Shown here piece after piece: positions 49,710-63,911 of a DNA stretch of 64,000 nucleotides. Position numbers and translations under genes: made by a program. The DNA is from Phenylobacterium sp. (GTDB lineage Bacteria > Pseudomonadota > Alphaproteobacteria > Caulobacterales > Caulobacteraceae), in contig NZ_SCTC01000009.1 of the NCBI RefSeq assembly GCF_004299445.1, positions 1 to 64,000 of the forward strand. The letters are read 5' to 3'. A model generated the notes under the pieces. That model ran no database searches. It saw nothing but the letters and a program-made list of their open reading frames with translations, and was not told where the DNA came from. Numbering within the stretch: the stretch's first letter is position 1; each line of letters opens with the position of its first letter.

Positions 49710-49756
49710 GAGCCTCTCGGCCCCATCAGGTTGAGCCAACCTGATCGGAGAGGCTC
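49710..49756. repeat. 47-nt inverted repeat between convergent genes
   Basis: Two nested perfect stems: 49710-49718 with 49748-49756, and 49725-49733 with 49737-49745, around a 3-nt loop. No U-run follows on either strand. It may be a terminator-like structure or a REP-type palindrome. Confidence 0.7.
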
Positions 49757-50304
49757 TAGCGGATCTGAACGACCTCCAGCGTGCCTGCGGGCGCCGGCCG
49801 GATCGGCGGCGCCGGCTGGGTCGTGTCCAGCCACTGGGCCCAGTGCTCACGCGGCAGGATCACGATCTGGCGGTCGTGGTAGGGCGCGATGTCGGGTCCG
49901 GGCGGGCAGGTGAGCAGGGTGAAGCGGTCGTCGCGGATCAGTCCGGCCACGCCCAGGAACGGCTGGCCGGCCGGGGTGAACCGCCATTTCGACTTGGGCG
50001 CCTTGGGGCCCGTGAACTCGAAGAAGGCGTCGATCGGGACCAGGCAACGCCCCTTTGCAAAGCTGCGGTCGTCCGAGCGGAAATTGATGATGGGCCCGCG
50101 GGGGCCTGGAAAACCCCATCGCATCTGCTGCAGGTGGGCCCCGCCGTCACGCCCGGTGACGATGAAGCTGGGGTCGGTAGGGCGGATCGAGGGGCGCGGC
50201 TCCATGTTGGGCGCGCCGCCGTCCCAGGCCAGCGACAGGTCCAGCTGGGCGAACTCCTTGAGCAGCTCGTCGAGCGACCGCTCCTGGGCGTATTCGTTGC
50301 ACAT
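49756..50304 (-). CDS. SRAP (SOS response-associated peptidase) / HMCES-like protein
   Basis: 182 aa. The new N-terminal Cys2 (MCNEYA) links to abasic sites in single-stranded DNA. Other conserved residues are NFRSDD (the Asn), FFEF (the Glu) and HDRQIVILP (the His). The protein shields abasic sites through a DNA-protein crosslink during replication. The start codon lies 6 nt after a TATTGT -10-like element, so the transcript may be leaderless. The promoter carries TGTAGATT, also present at the neighbouring repressor's promoter. Confidence 0.92.
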   Translation of the reverse strand: MCNEYAQERSLDELLKEFAQLDLSLAWDGGAPNMEPRPSIRPTDPSFIVTGRDGGAHLQQMRWGFPGPRGPIINFRSDDRSFAKGRCLVPIDAFFEFTGPKAPKSKWRFTPAGQPFLGVAGLIRDDRFTLLTCPPGPDIAPYHDRQIVILPREHWAQWLDTTQPAPPIRPAPAGTLEVVQIR

Positions 50305-50310
50305 GGGTTG

Positions 50311-50324
50311 ACAATAAATCTACA
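50311..50324 (-). promoter_or_regulatory. SRAP gene promoter with repressor-like site
   Basis: On the minus strand TGTAGATT (50324-50317) abuts TATTGT (50316-50311), a -10-like box 6 nt before the ATG. The TGTAGATT sequence recurs at 51009-51016 in front of the S24 repressor. Confidence 0.5.
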
Positions 50325-50360
50325 GAAGACCCGGCGCCAAGCGCCGTAGGAAATATGCGG

Positions 50361-51005
50361 TCAGGCCGCGCCGCGGATGATCCGGCGCGCCTGGAAGGGT
50401 GGGATGATGGCGGTGATGTGGGCCGCCCAGCGCAGCCTGGCGTCGCGCCGCATGGGGCCTGCGACGCTCTCGAGATCGTAGACGCCGGCGCGGGAGCCGC
50501 GGAGCAGGCGCTTGACCAGCACCTCGTCGGTATCGGTCTCGACGATCACCACCTGGCCCAGCATGTCGGGGGTCGGCGCGGTGCGCTGGTCCTCGAAGTA
50601 AATCAGAGCGCCGTCGTCGGCCAGGCCGCGCATCGAATGGCCCACCACCTTGAGGGCGCGGGCGCGGTCGGTGCCGCCCGGGGGCACGGGTGTGAGCTCG
50701 GCGGGATCCTGGCCCAGGGCGTAGAGGACCGTGCCGTCAGGATTGGCGCCCACCTGGCCGATCACAGGCACGAACCCCACGGGCGTCGTGGGCGCCATCG
50801 CACCGGCGGCGTCGTAGAGCCATTCGGCGCTGACCCCGAAGGCGGCCGCGTATTCCTTGGCGCGGCGATAGGAGAAGGGCGCGTTGCCGTTCTCGTTCGA
50901 GGCGAAGGTGTTGCGGCTCCAGCCGTGCGCATCCGCCGCCGCGGCGGCGGTTTCGAAGCCCCTGTCGATGCGGGCCTGCCTGAGCCGTTCGGCGCGACCG
51001 TCCAT
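50361..51005 (-). CDS. CI/LexA-like HTH repressor with S24 peptidase domain
   Basis: 214 aa. The N-terminal helix-turn-helix (RLRQARIDRGFETAAAAADAHGWSR to about 55) binds DNA. The C-terminal S24 domain has VVGHSMRGLADDG with the Ser nucleophile and EVLVKRLLRG with the Lys base, so self-cleavage in response to RecA is plausible. Its ATG sits 6 nt after a TAATCT -10-like box, implying a leaderless message. It is divergent from a three-gene operon and lies 57 bp upstream of the SRAP gene on the same strand. Confidence 0.88.
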   Translation of the reverse strand: MDGRAERLRQARIDRGFETAAAAADAHGWSRNTFASNENGNAPFSYRRAKEYAAAFGVSAEWLYDAAGAMAPTTPVGFVPVIGQVGANPDGTVLYALGQDPAELTPVPPGGTDRARALKVVGHSMRGLADDGALIYFEDQRTAPTPDMLGQVVIVETDTDEVLVKRLLRGSRAGVYDLESVAGPMRRDARLRWAAHITAIIPPFQARRIIRGAA

Positions 51006-51008
51006 GAC

Positions 51009-51059
51009 TGTAGATTACATGCTGACCCACTTGACTCAAGAAGGTGTAGAAAATATACA
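51009..51059. promoter_or_regulatory. Divergent promoter and operator region (repressor switch)
   Basis: Plus strand: TTGACT (51031-51036), 17 bp, TATACA (51054-51059), then 6 bp to the ATG at 51066. Minus strand: TTGAGT (51040-51035), 16 bp, TAATCT, then the repressor ATG. The two -35 boxes overlap. Operator-like palindromes TGTA-GAT-TACA (51009-51019) and TGTA-N7-TACA (51045-51059) cover each -10 box. Confidence 0.7.
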
Positions 51060-51065
51060 GCACGT

Positions 51066-51287
51066 ATGGCGAACATCGAAGTTCTCAACTATTCCGTGCT
51101 CCGTTGCGGCGGGGCTTCCCAGGGGCGAGCCTGCGCAGAACTGGGCGTCAGTTCCGGACGTGGGTTGGTGCTGGAGGCGTCGTTTCTCCGGCGCGACCCC
51201 GACGCCGTGCGGCCACGGTTCGCGCGGCACGCGCGGCACGTGAAGGCGGCGCTGGCGGCGGGCGGCTTCCCGGTGCTGAAGCGATGA
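51066..51287 (+). CDS. Small protein, first gene of the repressor-controlled operon
   Basis: 73 aa. Middle part GASQGRACAELGVSSGRGL could fold as a helix-turn-helix; the C-terminus is Arg-rich (RPRFARHARHVKAAL). No known family recalled. No ribosome-binding site precedes the ATG; the start sits where transcription should begin. It overlaps the next gene by 4 bp (ATGA). Confidence 0.65.
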   Translation: MANIEVLNYSVLRCGGASQGRACAELGVSSGRGLVLEASFLRRDPDAVRPRFARHARHVKAALAAGGFPVLKR

Positions 51288-51481
51288 GCGGGGCCCAGGA
51301 CGCCGCGGCGGTGGTGGCGGGCGAGCTCAGCCGGCGCAAGCCCGGGGAGCGGGGGCGGTTCCTGCGCGAGCTGCTGGCCCACTCGGCCGCCGGCCTGGTG
51401 GTCATCGAAGGCGAGGCCGAGGCCTCGGAAGCGGTCTACCGGCTGGCCGACGCGGTGGTGGCGCGAGGGCTGGCGCGATGA
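51284..51481 (+). CDS. Small protein, second gene of the operon
   Basis: 65 aa, soluble, basic N-terminal half (SRRKPGERGRFLRELLAH), then an acidic helix. No family recognised. ATGA overlaps on both sides join it to the flanking genes. Confidence 0.6.
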   Translation: MSGAQDAAAVVAGELSRRKPGERGRFLRELLAHSAAGLVVIEGEAEASEAVYRLADAVVARGLAR

Positions 51482-52071
51482 GGGATCGCAAGGCGAAGGA
51501 CCCGACGCTCAAGGCGCAGCGGGCGGCGCGCAACCGGCTGGTCCGGCTGGAACAGCAGGCCAGGGCGCGGGCCGAGTCGGCGGCGGTGGCCGATGGCGTC
51601 GCCGAGACGGTGGCGCTGTCGCGAGCCCGGGGTGCGGCCGTGGTCGGGCCCGAGCCGGGCCGCCGTGCCCCGCGCGACACGCCTTACAGGCGGCTGAACG
51701 GACTGGACTGGCTGGCGGCCAAGGGGCGCATCAGCGAGGAGGCCAAGGCGGCGGGCGAGCGCTATGGCTGGGTCTACCGACGTGTGAAGCTGGAGAAGTC
51801 CATCCCCTCGACCCTGGATGTGCGGGTGCGCGGGCCCTTCGTGCCGCCGGCGCTGGAGGATGTGCTGGCGCACGGCGAGGCGACCGACGCGGCGCGCAGG
51901 CGGCTGGCGGAGTTCCGTCGGAGGCTCTCGGGGCACCCCGACCTGGTGGCGGCCTGCGACGCGATCTGCGGCGAGGAGCAGACACCGCGAGAGGCGGCAG
52001 GAGGCGAGCGTGACGCCGGGCGACTGGAAGCGGTTCTGAAGGTGGCCCTGGAGTTGCTGGCGATGAGCTGA
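51478..52071 (+). CDS. Phage/GTA-type hypothetical protein, DUF6456-like C-terminus
   Basis: 197 aa. A basic coiled N-terminal third (KAQRAARNRLVRLEQQARARAE) is followed by a conserved-looking part with LNGLDWLAAKGRI, AGERYGWVYRR, a Pro-containing linker and a tail LVAACDAICGEEQTP then AGRLEAVLKVALELLA. I associate that arrangement with the DUF6456-type domain found in gene-transfer-agent activators and phage proteins; this is recall without a search. It is the last gene of the repressor-controlled operon. Confidence 0.55.
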   Translation: MRDRKAKDPTLKAQRAARNRLVRLEQQARARAESAAVADGVAETVALSRARGAAVVGPEPGRRAPRDTPYRRLNGLDWLAAKGRISEEAKAAGERYGWVYRRVKLEKSIPSTLDVRVRGPFVPPALEDVLAHGEATDAARRRLAEFRRRLSGHPDLVAACDAICGEEQTPREAAGGERDAGRLEAVLKVALELLAMS

Positions 52072-53141: not shown

Positions 53142-53156
53142 GTTCTTATTTTGTTC
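53142..53156. promoter_or_regulatory. Orphan SOS (LexA) box GTTC-N7-GTTC
   Basis: The sequence GTTC-TTATTTT-GTTC matches the alphaproteobacterial LexA box exactly. TTGACA (53157-53162) follows at once, and a 14-bp palindrome ATTCGCGCGCGAAT lies at 53162-53175. It sits between two convergent 3' ends, with no gene in a position to use it. Confidence 0.6.
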
Positions 53157-53234
53157 TTGACATTCGCGCGCGAATTTGAGAGAGTTCTGTCAGAGTTGAT
53201 CAGTGCGTCCGGAGAGCCTCGGCTCGTCAGGACG

Positions 53235-55820: not shown

Positions 55821-55837
55821 CTGTAGAAAAATGACAC
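55821..55837 (+). promoter_or_regulatory. Possible fourth repressor-type site
   Basis: TGTA-GAAAAAT-GACA at 55822-55836 differs by one base from the TGTA-N7-TACA operator at 51045-51059, and shares its TGTAGAAAA run. It lies 1 bp before the ATG of the winged-helix gene. Confidence 0.35.
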
Positions 55838-56722
55838 ATGCGGGACGCCGCCTCCCTTGACACGCGTCCCGGCGCACGACGGGTTCGGCGGCGTATGGAC
55901 ATCACAGTGCAGGAGGTCGCGGCCCTTCGCGCGCGACCGCGTTTTCGTACCGCCGTCGAGACCTATGCGGCCGCCAATCTCGACGGCTACCGCGCCCGTC
56001 CCTTGATCGAGCGCTGGATGGTCAGCGACATGGGACGCTCTTCGATCTCGGGCGCAATATCGGTCCTTGAGGGGCAAGGCCGTCTGACCCCTGCCGCCCT
56101 GATGGCCTCTCGGCCGGTCACCGGCGGCGAGGTCAGTCGCGGCCGTGTGCGCGCCTACCTGCAGCGGGCCATCGCCAACGACCTGATCCTCGCGCCCCCC
56201 GGGCCCCTTGCTCCGGATACGGTGCTGACCACGTCGCCGCGATTTCGGGCGACCATGAAGCTCATTCTGAGGGTGACCCTCGAGGCCGCGGCAAGCTTTT
56301 GGCCCGCTGTCGCCCCGGCGCTCGACCGCATGGAGGACGAGGCGTTCTACCAACGCGTGTCGCGAGGTCTCGGGAAAATCGTGGTCGAGCGCGCCGACCT
56401 GTTCCCCATCGAACGGCCGCTGTGGCTGTTCCATGGCCGCGACGGCGGCGGGCGAATGCTGGAAGACCTGATCAGCCGCCAGCGCCCCGACCGCCAACGG
56501 CTCCTGGATGACTGCGAGGTCACCCACTCGGCGCTGGCGCGGGCGAGCCATTGTTCGCGCGCCCACGTCATTCAGCTGCTCATCGACGGGGAGGCCCAGG
56601 GCCTGCTTCGCCGCGAAGGCCGCAAGCTCATCGTCGCGCCCGAGCTCTCGGAGGACGCCGAGCGCTTTTACGCGGCCATCTTCGCCGCAGCGGCGGCGGC
56701 TGCCGTCGCTGCGTTGGCCTGA
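55838..56722 (+). CDS. HTH/winged-helix regulator, unassigned family
   Basis: 294 aa from the first ATG; a second ATG (55895) gives 275 aa. The N-terminal part (LIERWMVSDMGRSSISGAI) and a C-terminal part (DDCEVTHSALARASHCSRAHVIQLLIDG) both look like helix-turn-helix segments; the end is an Ala-rich run. No clear ligand domain. No ribosome-binding site precedes either ATG. I could not place it in a family, and the C-terminal motif is the stronger of the two. Confidence 0.6.
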   Translation: MRDAASLDTRPGARRVRRRMDITVQEVAALRARPRFRTAVETYAAANLDGYRARPLIERWMVSDMGRSSISGAISVLEGQGRLTPAALMASRPVTGGEVSRGRVRAYLQRAIANDLILAPPGPLAPDTVLTTSPRFRATMKLILRVTLEAAASFWPAVAPALDRMEDEAFYQRVSRGLGKIVVERADLFPIERPLWLFHGRDGGGRMLEDLISRQRPDRQRLLDDCEVTHSALARASHCSRAHVIQLLIDGEAQGLLRREGRKLIVAPELSEDAERFYAAIFAAAAAAAVAALA

Positions 56723-60553: not shown

Positions 60554-60835
60554 TCAGGCCGATGTCCCGCCGTAGCGTCTGGCGCGGCGGCGGCGCTCGC
60601 GGGCGCCGGCGCTGAGACGCCAGCCCAGGATGATGCGGCCGCGCCAGGGCACGACGACCTGGGCGCCCGTGTGCCGTTCCTGGCCGGGCAGGCAGGCGCC
60701 GACGCGGATCGGGGCGTCGAGGTCTTCGAGGATTTCAGGCTGGAAGGTCTCGCTGACAGACAGGGCCATGGCCTGGATGCGCGCGACATCGCGGTCGCTG
60801 AGGTAGCGGCGCAGGCGGGGCGGGCGAGGTGTCAT
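60554..60835 (-). CDS. Small basic protein next to terminase, unknown
   Basis: 93 aa, with a central beta-type stretch (APIRVGACLPGQERHTGAQVVV) and a very basic tail (ARERRRRARRYG). It is divergent from the terminase small subunit gene; 46 bp separate the starts. No ribosome-binding site is visible. No family recognised. Confidence 0.45.
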   Translation of the reverse strand: MTPRPPRLRRYLSDRDVARIQAMALSVSETFQPEILEDLDAPIRVGACLPGQERHTGAQVVVPWRGRIILGWRLSAGARERRRRARRYGGTSA

Positions 60836-60881
60836 GACGGAACAAAAGACGAACATAGAAGGTGATGCAAGGAGAACCGTA

Positions 60882-61358
60882 GTGGCAAAGGTTGGACGAG
60901 GGCTGCCGGCCCCGAAATCGAAGCGGCGGGTGAAGTACGGGCCGAACGTGGTGCGGCTCGTGTGCGAGGATCTGGCGAGCGGCATGACCTACAACGAGGT
61001 CACGCAGGGCCGGGGGCGGCCCAGTCATTCCAGCCTCTATGAGTGGCGGCGCCGGTATCCCGAGTTCGCCGAGGCGACCGATGCAGCCCGGGCCTTTGGC
61101 GCGGAAGTGTGCGGTGACCGGGCCCTGGAGGTCGCCGAGCAGGCGACCGAGGAGACCGTCCGCAAGGCGAAGCTGGAGGTGGACACATTGGTGCATCGCG
61201 CGGCTGTGCTGGCCCCCGAGCGGTGGGGTGGTCGGGGCGCCGGCCTCCGCAGGGCCGAGCCGATCGAGGTCGTGTTCAGCGTCAGGCGGTTCGAGAAGGT
61301 GGTCGGTCCAGACGGCCGGGTCTGTGTCCGCGAAATCAAGCCGGAAGGCGAGGTCTGA
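60882..61358 (+). CDS. Phage terminase small subunit-like protein
   Basis: 158 aa from a GTG with AAGGAGA at a 6-bp spacing; this beats the upstream ATG, which would overlap the divergent gene. The HTH part (LVCEDLASGMTYNEVTQGRGRPSHSSLYEWRRRYPEF) is the DNA-binding element typical of terminase small subunits. It overlaps the large subunit by 1 bp (TGATG). Confidence 0.75.
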   Translation: MAKVGRGLPAPKSKRRVKYGPNVVRLVCEDLASGMTYNEVTQGRGRPSHSSLYEWRRRYPEFAEATDAARAFGAEVCGDRALEVAEQATEETVRKAKLEVDTLVHRAAVLAPERWGGRGAGLRRAEPIEVVFSVRRFEKVVGPDGRVCVREIKPEGEV

Positions 61359-62710
61359 TGGCGAAGGTCGAGGTGACCCTGCCGATCGACTGGGAGCCGC
61401 GGCCGCACCAGGCAGACCTGTGGGACGCCTTGGTGGGAGGCGTAAAGCGCGCCGACGTCGTGGCCCATCGGCGCTGGGGCAAGGATGAGGTGGCGCTGCA
61501 CTGGGCCGCCTGGGCGGCGCAGGATCGGGTGGGCGGCTACTGGCACCTGTTGCCCGAGGCCAACCAGGGCCGGAGGGCGATCTGGGACGCGGTCAATCCG
61601 CACACGGGGCGACGCCGGATCGAGGAAGCGTTCCCGTCGATCATGCAGCCGCGGTTCAAGGACAGCGACATGATGGTGGAGCTGGGCAACGGCTCGACAT
61701 GGCAGGTGGCCGGTTCGGACAACTACGACAGACTGGTGGGCGCTTCGGTGGCGGGCGTGGTGCTGTCCGAATGGGCGCTGGCCAAGCCGGACGCCTGGTC
61801 ACATTTGCGACCGATGCTGCTGGAGAACGACGGGTGGGCGCTGTTCCTGTGGACGCCGCGGGGGCGGAACCACGCAACGCGGGCCTTCGAGGCGCGACGG
61901 CAGCGCGCAAACTGGTTCTGCCAGAAGTCTCCGGCCACCGAGACAGGCGTGTTCACCCCGGGCCAGCTGGCTATCGAGAAGGCCGAGCTGGTGGCCGAGC
62001 TGGGGTCGGAGGAAGAGGGGCACGCGCGGTTCGCGTCGGAGTATCTGGTGGATTTCGACGCCGCGGCGCCCGGCGCCTACTACGCCAGCGCGCTGGGGGA
62101 GGCCGAACGCGCCGGGCGAATCGGGCGCGTGCCAGTGGACCCGTCGCTTCGCGTCGACACCGCGTGGGACCTGGGGATCGACGACTACACGGCCATCTGG
62201 TTCTTCCAGCAGGCGGGGCGCGAGGTTCGCGTGGTCGACTACTTCGAAACCAACGGCCAGGGGCTGGACCAGATCGTGCGCCAGGCCATCGCGGCCCGGC
62301 CCTATACGTGGGGCAGCCATCATCTGCCGCATGATGTGATGGTGCGCGAGCTGGCGACGGGACGGTCGCGGTACGAGACGCTGGGGTCGCTGGGGTTGTC
62401 GCGGATCGTGGTCGGGGCGGCGGCCGACCCCGAGGAGCGGGTGAACGCGGCGCGGCTGATGATCCCCATGTGCTGGTTCGACGCCGAGCGATGCGCGCAG
62501 GGGTTGGAGCGTCTGCGCGCCTATCGCAAGCGTTGGAGCCGGGCGACCATGACCTATGGCGGGCCGCTGCACGACCACGCCAGCCATGGCGCGGACGCGT
62601 TCGGCGAGTTCGCGCTCAATCGCCTGGGCGCGGGCCGCGGCGCAGGCGGCGAGGGCGAGCCGCGGGCGACGCGGCGGGCCCATGGCGGCGGGTTGTCCTG
62701 GATGGGCTAG
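61358..62710 (+). CDS. Phage terminase large subunit
   Basis: 450 aa. The ATPase loop is AHRRWGKDEVAL, a form of Walker A seen in phage terminases; VVLSEWAL serves as Walker B. The nuclease part begins DTAWDLGIDDYTAIWF and ends DHASHGADAFGEFAL, with acidic residues in the RNase H-like positions. It packages DNA into capsids. No portal, capsid or tail gene follows in the next 1.3 kb. Confidence 0.9.
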   Translation: MAKVEVTLPIDWEPRPHQADLWDALVGGVKRADVVAHRRWGKDEVALHWAAWAAQDRVGGYWHLLPEANQGRRAIWDAVNPHTGRRRIEEAFPSIMQPRFKDSDMMVELGNGSTWQVAGSDNYDRLVGASVAGVVLSEWALAKPDAWSHLRPMLLENDGWALFLWTPRGRNHATRAFEARRQRANWFCQKSPATETGVFTPGQLAIEKAELVAELGSEEEGHARFASEYLVDFDAAAPGAYYASALGEAERAGRIGRVPVDPSLRVDTAWDLGIDDYTAIWFFQQAGREVRVVDYFETNGQGLDQIVRQAIAARPYTWGSHHLPHDVMVRELATGRSRYETLGSLGLSRIVVGAAADPEERVNAARLMIPMCWFDAERCAQGLERLRAYRKRWSRATMTYGGPLHDHASHGADAFGEFALNRLGAGRGAGGEGEPRATRRAHGGGLSWMG

Positions 62711-63332: not shown

Positions 63333-63367
63333 TTACAGCTGTAGCAATATGAATGCTACAGCTGTAA
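63333..63367 (+). promoter_or_regulatory. BlaI/MecI-type operator, perfect inverted repeat
   Basis: Arms of 14 bp (63333-63346 and 63354-63367) are exact inverted copies with a 7-bp spacer; each contains TACAGCTGTA, the TACA-N2-TGTA core of BlaI sites. TTGACT lies upstream at 63320-63325. Confidence 0.75.
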
Positions 63368-63383
63368 AAAAGGAGATCGACCG

Positions 63384-63911
63384 ATGCAGCGTCTGAACCT
63401 GAAGACCCTGGTCCTGGGCTGCGCCGTCGCGCTGGCGACGGGCGCCGCCCAGGCGCAGGAAGCGGCGAAATGCGCCGGCTGCGCGGAGGACGGGCTGACC
63501 CTCGTACCCCCCGCGGAGCGATTGACGTTGGGCGGCGTGTTCGCTGACGCCTCGCTGGAGGTGCAGGTGATCCTCGCTCTGCTGATCGCGGCGGCCCTGT
63601 CGTCGCTGGTGATCTGGGGCCTCAGCTTGCCGAAGGTGGGCAAGGGCGACGCCCGGGCGTTGGCCGGCGCGCTGGGCCGGCTGAGAATCGTCCGGTCGGG
63701 CGGAGCGCCGCTGGGGGCGCTGGGGGCGAGCTACGTGCTGTTCGCCGGCTTCGTCGGTCTCGCCAACGTGCGCCCGACGCCAAGCATCGGCGTATTGGCG
63801 CCGGGCTGGGCCGAGGCGGCGCTGGCGCTCATGCTTGGCCTGCTGGCCACCACGGTGGGGGTGCTGTGCGAGCGCCACCTCGAAGCGCGGATCCGCGGAG
63901 CGGCGGCTTAA
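63384..63911 (+). CDS. Membrane protein controlled by a BlaI-type repressor
   Basis: 175 aa. A signal-like N-terminus (GCAVALATGAAQAQ) is followed by a short Cys pair (CAGC) and three hydrophobic helices (about 57-75, 107-130, 135-155), an ExbB/MotA-like look without a clear motif. AAGGAGA precedes the ATG. The perfect operator at 63333 lies directly in its promoter, and the repressor gene starts 7 bp after its stop. Confidence 0.7.
   Translation: MQRLNLKTLVLGCAVALATGAAQAQEAAKCAGCAEDGLTLVPPAERLTLGGVFADASLEVQVILALLIAAALSSLVIWGLSLPKVGKGDARALAGALGRLRIVRSGGAPLGALGASYVLFAGFVGLANVRPTPSIGVLAPGWAEAALALMLGLLATTVGVLCERHLEARIRGAAA

Follow-up and report, generated by a model that had tools for sequence, protein, structure and literature searches.

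What does a lambda-like divergent switch control in a genome of Phenylobacterium sp.? The question is raised by a locus at 49756–52071 of the window, by which we mean the whole 64,000-nucleotide stretch analysed here (positions 1 to 64,000 of contig NZ_SCTC01000009.1, assembly GCF_004299445.1). The locus comprises a gene for a CI/LexA-shaped repressor, a divergent operon of three genes that we call gA, gB and gC, and, behind the repressor, a gene for the abasic-site repair protein SRAP. A preliminary description of the sequence had seen here a self-contained circuit in which DNA damage turns on operon and SRAP together. Comparison with relatives, in which the module, its operators and their spacing, a link to a structural gene cluster, a common chromosomal place and LexA boxes recur, leads us to a different answer: the locus is probably a switch of the RogA/GafZ kind, belonging to a P22-like prophage-derived element that is linked to SOS and has largely been kept vertically.

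Architecture of the switch locus

The repressor (214 amino acids (aa), 50361–51005, minus strand) combines an XRE-type helix-turn-helix (HTH) with a Peptidase_S24 domain. It exceeds the Pfam cut-off for Peptidase_S24 (23.6 bits against 23.3), stays under the cut-offs of the HTH models, and matches the phrog_4 transcriptional repressor at 8.9e-22; NCBIfam gave a sub-threshold RstR match and nothing else, and PDB sequences gave no match at 0.01. One further S24 match in the genome, on contig C63, is taken as LexA. As described earlier, and as the coordinates confirm, the repressor diverges across 60 bp from a three-gene operon (51066–52071, plus strand). Its first gene, gA (73 aa, 51066–51287), encodes a predicted all-helical small protein, possibly an HTH protein, whose matches among PDB folds are weak (best E 1.9) and unconvincing; it is followed by gB (65 aa, 51284–51481) and gC (197 aa, 51478–52071). 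Open reading frames (ORFs) were called with a simple GC-based script, and models of defence systems matched none of the locus's five proteins. The arrangement is shared within the genus: a repressor match is present in 22 of 24 same-genus genomes (one at 36% identity), and in the 19 genus loci compared (L005–L023) gC always adjoins the repressor in divergent orientation, with gA found in 18 and gB in 17. Median dN/dS ranges from 0.21 for the repressor up to 0.53 for gC.

The promoter geometry noted previously proved exact. The divergent −35 elements overlap in TTGACTCAAG (51031–51040), and both predicted −10 boxes lie 6 nt before an ATG, giving TTGACT-17 nt-TATACA-6 nt-ATG for gA and TTGAGT-16 nt-TAATCT-6 nt-ATG for the repressor. 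Palindromes containing TGTA do cover both −10 boxes, but the unit is a 17-bp palindrome, CTGTA-N7-TACAG, and not the 11-bp TGTA-N3-TACA; two copies lie between repressor and gA. Operator O1 (51008–51024) overlies the repressor −10 and operator O2 (51044–51060) the gA −10. Scored with a matrix built from 96 sites of 48 other loci, the window being left out, O2 and O1 rank first and second in the 64 kb (24.1 and 19.0 bits), compared with a maximum of 14.1 in 60 first-order Markov windows. The matrix was used because loose genome-wide counts are uninformative: STGTAN7TACAS with one mismatch occurs 109 times, fewer than the 278 of the reversed control.

Operators across relatives

The operators were compared at 48 loci in which both the repressor and gA are present (43 on genome contigs and five on IMG/VR contigs). 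Their spacing is 34–38 bp in 46 of the 48, and in 46 the gA ATG follows O2 by 5–9 nt. The distance from O1 to the repressor ATG is 2–4 nt in 11 loci, the window's type, and 22–33 nt in the other 37. These distances suggest that a leaderless gA transcript would be a trait of the family and a leaderless repressor transcript a local trait only. The earlier proposal of leaderless transcripts in both directions gains support from conservation for gA, but for the repressor it would apply to the local type alone. Leaderless mRNAs are common in Caulobacter, where PMC4117421 counts 375. A TTG...CAA between O1 and O2 also recurs in the window's closer relatives.

Several operator-like sites lie elsewhere. 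The third-best site of the window (55821–55837, 11.8 bits) falls between two divergent ORFs, and the protein beside it (55838–56722) has no Pfam match at 0.001; the fifth-best (63345–63361, 10.9 bits) is upstream of a cluster ORF at 63384. On contig C76 (L067, L294) a perfect operator (65557–65573, 27.4 bits) stops 2 nt short of the ATG for a small protein (51 aa) that has one apparent membrane segment, and a serine recombinase ORF (Resolvase, 9.1e-19) comes next. In L086 (genome G098) a repressor homolog is divergent from a small protein of similar appearance, as judged by eye, and a resolvase ORF lies behind that repressor.

SRAP and the third operator

SRAP (182 aa, 49756–50304, minus strand; PF02586, 9.3e-21) starts with MCNEY and keeps Cys2; a second SRAP of the same genome is on contig C76. 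The gene is adjacent to and downstream of the repressor, although the gap measures 56 nt where 50 bp had been given. A shared operator had been proposed on the strength of TGTAGATT, which recurs at SRAP. The repeat is real, with two copies only on both strands of the window (51009 and 50317), the SRAP copy ending 12 nt ahead of the SRAP ATG. As an operator it is weak, however: the best 17-mer that includes it, O4 (50309–50325), scores 1.8 bits, whereas a better candidate, O3 (50344–50360, 11.4 bits, rank 4 in the window), lies beside the repressor stop codon, upstream of SRAP.

Among relatives, SRAP is nearby in 14 loci, 13 of which have a repressor–SRAP gap of 32–91 nt; all 13 carry an operator site with a local p of at most 0.005, and in ten of them the second-best site is 34–37 nt from the first, like O1 and O2. 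The fourteenth locus (L140), with a gap of 1201 nt, has no good site. Most control loci without an adjacent SRAP also have the third operator: in 29 of 32 a site of at least 13 bits falls within 80 nt of the repressor stop, and it often precedes another small gene's start by 7–8 nt. Counting sites of at least 6 bits within about 110 nt of the stop, 40 of 45 loci have one, and in 31 of 45 a start codon is at most 12 nt away. Because the third operator is also present where SRAP is not, SRAP appears to occupy a conserved regulated slot that in most relatives holds another small gene. The conserved sites behind the repressor thus support the earlier view that SRAP is part of the switch's regulon, which would make an abasic-site repair protein a member of a phage-derived regulon.

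A P22-like head cluster and a GafZ-like gene

The preliminary description overlooked a P22-like cluster whose terminase genes lie in the same window. An Sf6-like small terminase (60834–61358, plus strand; PF20901, 1.7e-18; phrog_1482, 3.7e-16) is followed by a large terminase (61358–62710, plus strand; phrog_2 terminase large subunit, 1.5e-17; no Pfam match at 0.01). Of 24 same-genus genomes, 18 have a homolog of the latter (partial in two), and in the window the match spans 61367–62635. Among 48 genome-contig loci, 25 show the large terminase downstream of gC and on its strand, and in the other 23 it is absent or beyond the available stretch; relatives of gC stand upstream of terminase genes, as judged by eye, in all six IMG/VR loci. 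In relatives the cluster holds a P22-type portal, scaffold, coat and further structural genes, with matches in one relative of 1.5e-195 to the P22 portal and 4e-36 to the P22 coat. The comparison suggests that in relatives a P22-like head cluster has the switch as its regulatory end, on the upstream side. In five 40-kb stretches with both module and cluster (genomes G093, G084, G026, G074 and G006), sites of at least 14 bits occur at the module only; lacking strong operators, the structural genes would therefore need to be switched on indirectly.

A candidate for this step is gC. Compared by hhalign with the DUF6456 domain of GafZ, here assigned by its place behind the DnaA-like GafY where genomes carry the RcGTA marker, gC scored 84.6% (E 6.9e-6, 117 columns) and the gA control 0.2%. 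The top viral match of the gC model in Foldseek is likewise a DUF6456 phage protein (E 2.1e-4, probability 1.00); PDB folds gave nothing convincing. GafZ and GafA work with RNA polymerase (PMC11150451, PMC9638019), and in Caulobacter crescentus RogA silences gafYZ, which switches on the CcGTA cluster, a gene transfer agent (PMC9632790, PMC11150451). By analogy, gC may be an activator.

Location and inheritance of the element

Of 101 Phenylobacterium genomes, 45 have the coat gene, each with a single match (one match partial, one only 34% identical). Flanks were assessed for 38 of the 45 coat loci, of which 26 had at least 9.5 kb downstream and 12 were too short, G210 and G211 being outside the sample. 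Host murA/hisD lie downstream of the coat cluster in 21 of the 26 testable loci, and hisD does so in a further five genomes (G093, G006, G026, G103 and G132). In 17 genomes the tree of a tail gene tracks that of the host, with r = 0.60 to hisD and 0.84 to murA, the two host genes giving 0.72 between themselves. Cellular-looking genes are interspersed among the phage genes, and no integrase or replication gene is among ten ORFs scanned from one element. The fairest reading of these patterns is that the element has mostly been kept vertically, with exchange of the coat gene.

The same data bear on the foremost rival, an ordinary active temperate P22-like prophage whose immunity region is the locus and whose shared place is a favoured integration site. 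Phage structural genes, a CI-like repressor, gC in the six IMG/VR loci, patchy presence and a coat phylogeny in conflict with the host would all fit such a phage. It would sit less easily with one coat match in each genome that has the gene, with the recurrent murA/hisD neighbour and the host-like tail tree, with cellular-looking genes between phage genes, or with ten scanned ORFs free of an integrase; moreover, gC found no match in 50,697 phage records (tblastn). We consider an active prophage rather unlikely.

A number of observations nevertheless weigh against a vertically kept element under a GafZ-like switch. As many as 56 of the 101 genus genomes have no coat gene, murA/hisD is not downstream in five of the 26 testable loci, and in G103 repressor and terminase are about 1.3 Mb apart. 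The coat tree correlates poorly with hisD (r = 0.22, p 0.05; 17 genomes), four of ten well-supported coat splits being in conflict, and a coat tree of 23 genomes gives r = 0.39 with three of 20 splits shared; we read this conflict with the host as evidence that exchange occurs. In the window genome, 8.8 kb of ordinary-looking genes separate gC from the terminase. The gC match in Foldseek has a template-modelling score of just 0.45, and against Pfam gC has no match at E up to 1, nor has any of 16 members. No function was assigned to gA or gB, and gA and gC are weakly constrained (dN/dS 0.43–0.56). Finally, all the evidence is comparative and the relatives are not independent of one another, so that p-values are overstated.

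The cluster of the window genome looks decayed or broken: the start of the portal gene is fused to an endolysin gene, an IS1595 transposase lies nearby, and the coat gene has no match in this genome. The portal–endolysin fusion may instead be an assembly fault.

Two further observations concern the element's content and place. At L182 (9374–10029) a RelE-type toxin with an HTH partner lies inside the element of one genome. In L086, from a genome without the large terminase, the repressor homolog is near the start of murA (by eye) and may be what is left of the element at that locus.

LexA boxes and release of the repressor

The LexA box of Alphaproteobacteria is GTTC-N7-GTTC. Of 51 relatives, 20 (many of them closely related) carry an exact box between −70 and +25 of gA, in its promoter region, compared with 104 of 12008 background segments. 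Across eight genomes the element has 29 exact boxes over 198 kb, against one over the 152 kb outside it, the element ends having been set by hand from gene calls; the N8 spacing control was even (15 and 16). In the window, a LexA-like box with one mismatch covers the gA start (GCACGTATGGCGAAC, 51060–51074), and L115 and L116 have an exact GAAC-N7-GAAC at its position. Exact boxes lie at the small terminase (60840–60854) and at 53142–53156 (plus strand), the latter followed by TTGACA as a copy of a dispersed SOS-type promoter cassette. This cassette, which accounts for many of the boxes and has 42 distinct copies, consists of the box, TTGA(C) and a conserved stretch; no RNA structure was predicted in it. 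Given the enrichment in the element and the boxes in relatives' gA promoters, an SOS link through LexA is likely for the element and weaker for the window copy. Published work reportedly links LexA with gene transfer agents.

Cassette copies were seen at 53142–53215 of the window, at 64821–64896 of contig C47 and, in part, at 68985. The first of these has no obvious gene after it on its own strand.

Release by self-cleavage, the route proposed earlier, is doubtful. The catalytic Ser and Lys are present in all 49 aligned orthologs, and align with E. coli LexA as well, but at or near the scissile position Ala-Gly or Cys-Gly occurs in none of the 49; that position reads GAN in 43, GAD in five and GGN in one, the window having VGAN.

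These findings also bear on the earlier interpretation as a whole, namely a stand-alone lambda-like switch that responds to DNA damage by repressor self-cleavage and governs operon and SRAP apart from LexA. The architecture and the SRAP operator are real, the Ser/Lys dyad is invariant in the 49 orthologs, and the box at the window's gA promoter deviates from the exact motif at one position. Yet the module is linked with a phage cluster, the expected cleavage dipeptides are missing, and the exact boxes in relatives' gA promoters, with their enrichment in the element, contradict independence from LexA for the family. A switch of this kind is, in our judgement, improbable.

A third rival, in which the repressor would be a RogA ortholog and its target an RcGTA-type gene transfer agent like that of Caulobacter, is favoured by a common design, with an S24-domain repressor set over the operon of a GafZ-like gene, and by nearly equal length (214 versus 213 aa). 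Unless a divergent RcGTA cluster escaped notice, this rival is rejected as extremely unlikely on genome content (the RcGTA marker GTA_TIM and GafZ occur in 67 and 51 of 149 family genomes, respectively, and each in none of 24 same-genus genomes), on sequence (blastp of the repressor against L251, identified as RogA (CCNA_00080) tentatively, from a length of 213 aa and a position 85.7 kb into its genome, was not significant, with a best E of 0.12, and L251 lacks the Ser/Lys pair) and on operator (published as GGAA-N4-TTCC for RogA, CTGTA-N7-TACAG here). As a separate observation, gafZ is interrupted in L199 (G130) despite the presence of the RcGTA marker.

A model for the switch

In the preferred reading, a P22-like prophage-derived element under its own switch, the repressor would bind CTGTA-N7-TACAG so as to cover the −10 boxes of both divergent promoters, the one for itself and the one for gA-gB-gC, and through a further operator it would control the gene behind it, SRAP here and mostly another small gene elsewhere. 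Its release would allow gA-gB-gC to be made, and gC, acting on RNA polymerase, would turn on the downstream structural genes. LexA boxes in the element and on many relatives' gA promoters would couple the element to the SOS response. Repressor binding, the leaderless starts, gC as activator and the inducing signal are the steps that we infer. Because the cluster looks broken in the window genome, the output remaining there would likely be SRAP and cargo genes.

More tentatively, the element could be an independent P22-derived gene transfer agent of Phenylobacterium, with a RogA/GafZ-like two-step switch, SOS wiring through LexA cassettes, and SRAP or a small protein as co-induced helper. The context is that the RcGTA-type marker had no match in 24 same-genus genomes; we regard this as a possibility worth stating and not as the expected outcome.

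Comparison with known systems

The element was not found described in the literature searched on Phenylobacterium, P22-like or podovirus gene transfer agents and DUF6456, a search whose coverage took in few subscription journals; PMC10386132, on podovirus-related prophages, makes no mention of Phenylobacterium. 

In lambda CI and P22 C2 immunity, a repressor and an early operon diverge, with paired operators over the two promoters. The locus resembles these systems in its divergent layout, paired operators and implied autoregulation, and differs in its probable leaderless starts, the third operator behind the repressor, the absence of Ala-Gly and a structural region in which strong operators are lacking. 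The structural module of P22/Sf6 is similar in its portal, scaffold, coat and small terminase families, from which the element is set apart by a common chromosomal place, cellular-looking cargo, promoter cassettes with LexA boxes and the lack of an integrase among the ten element ORFs scanned.

SRAP/YedK is placed near SOS genes, in SOS and prophage neighbourhoods, by PMC3765255, whose authors also note SRAP in temperate phages. Compared with those neighbourhoods, SRAP here would be under the element's own operator, in a slot that is usually filled otherwise.

In design, the nearest counterpart is RogA-gafYZ-CcGTA (PMC9632790, PMC11150451): an S24-domain repressor stands over a small operon with a DUF6456 (GafZ-like) protein, and the target is a phage-derived structural cluster. 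Unlike RogA, the repressor here is non-orthologous, keeps Ser/Lys, and is both linked to and divergent from its operon; no DnaA-like GafY was recognised in gA-gB-gC, and the cluster is P22-like rather than RcGTA-like, with LexA boxes in addition. The parallel thus appears to be one of design and not of repressor descent. The comparison suggests that a repressor set over a GafZ-like gene may govern phage-derived clusters of more than one kind, and Phenylobacterium, where the RcGTA-type marker was not found in 24 genomes, offers a second candidate, P22-like and SOS-linked.

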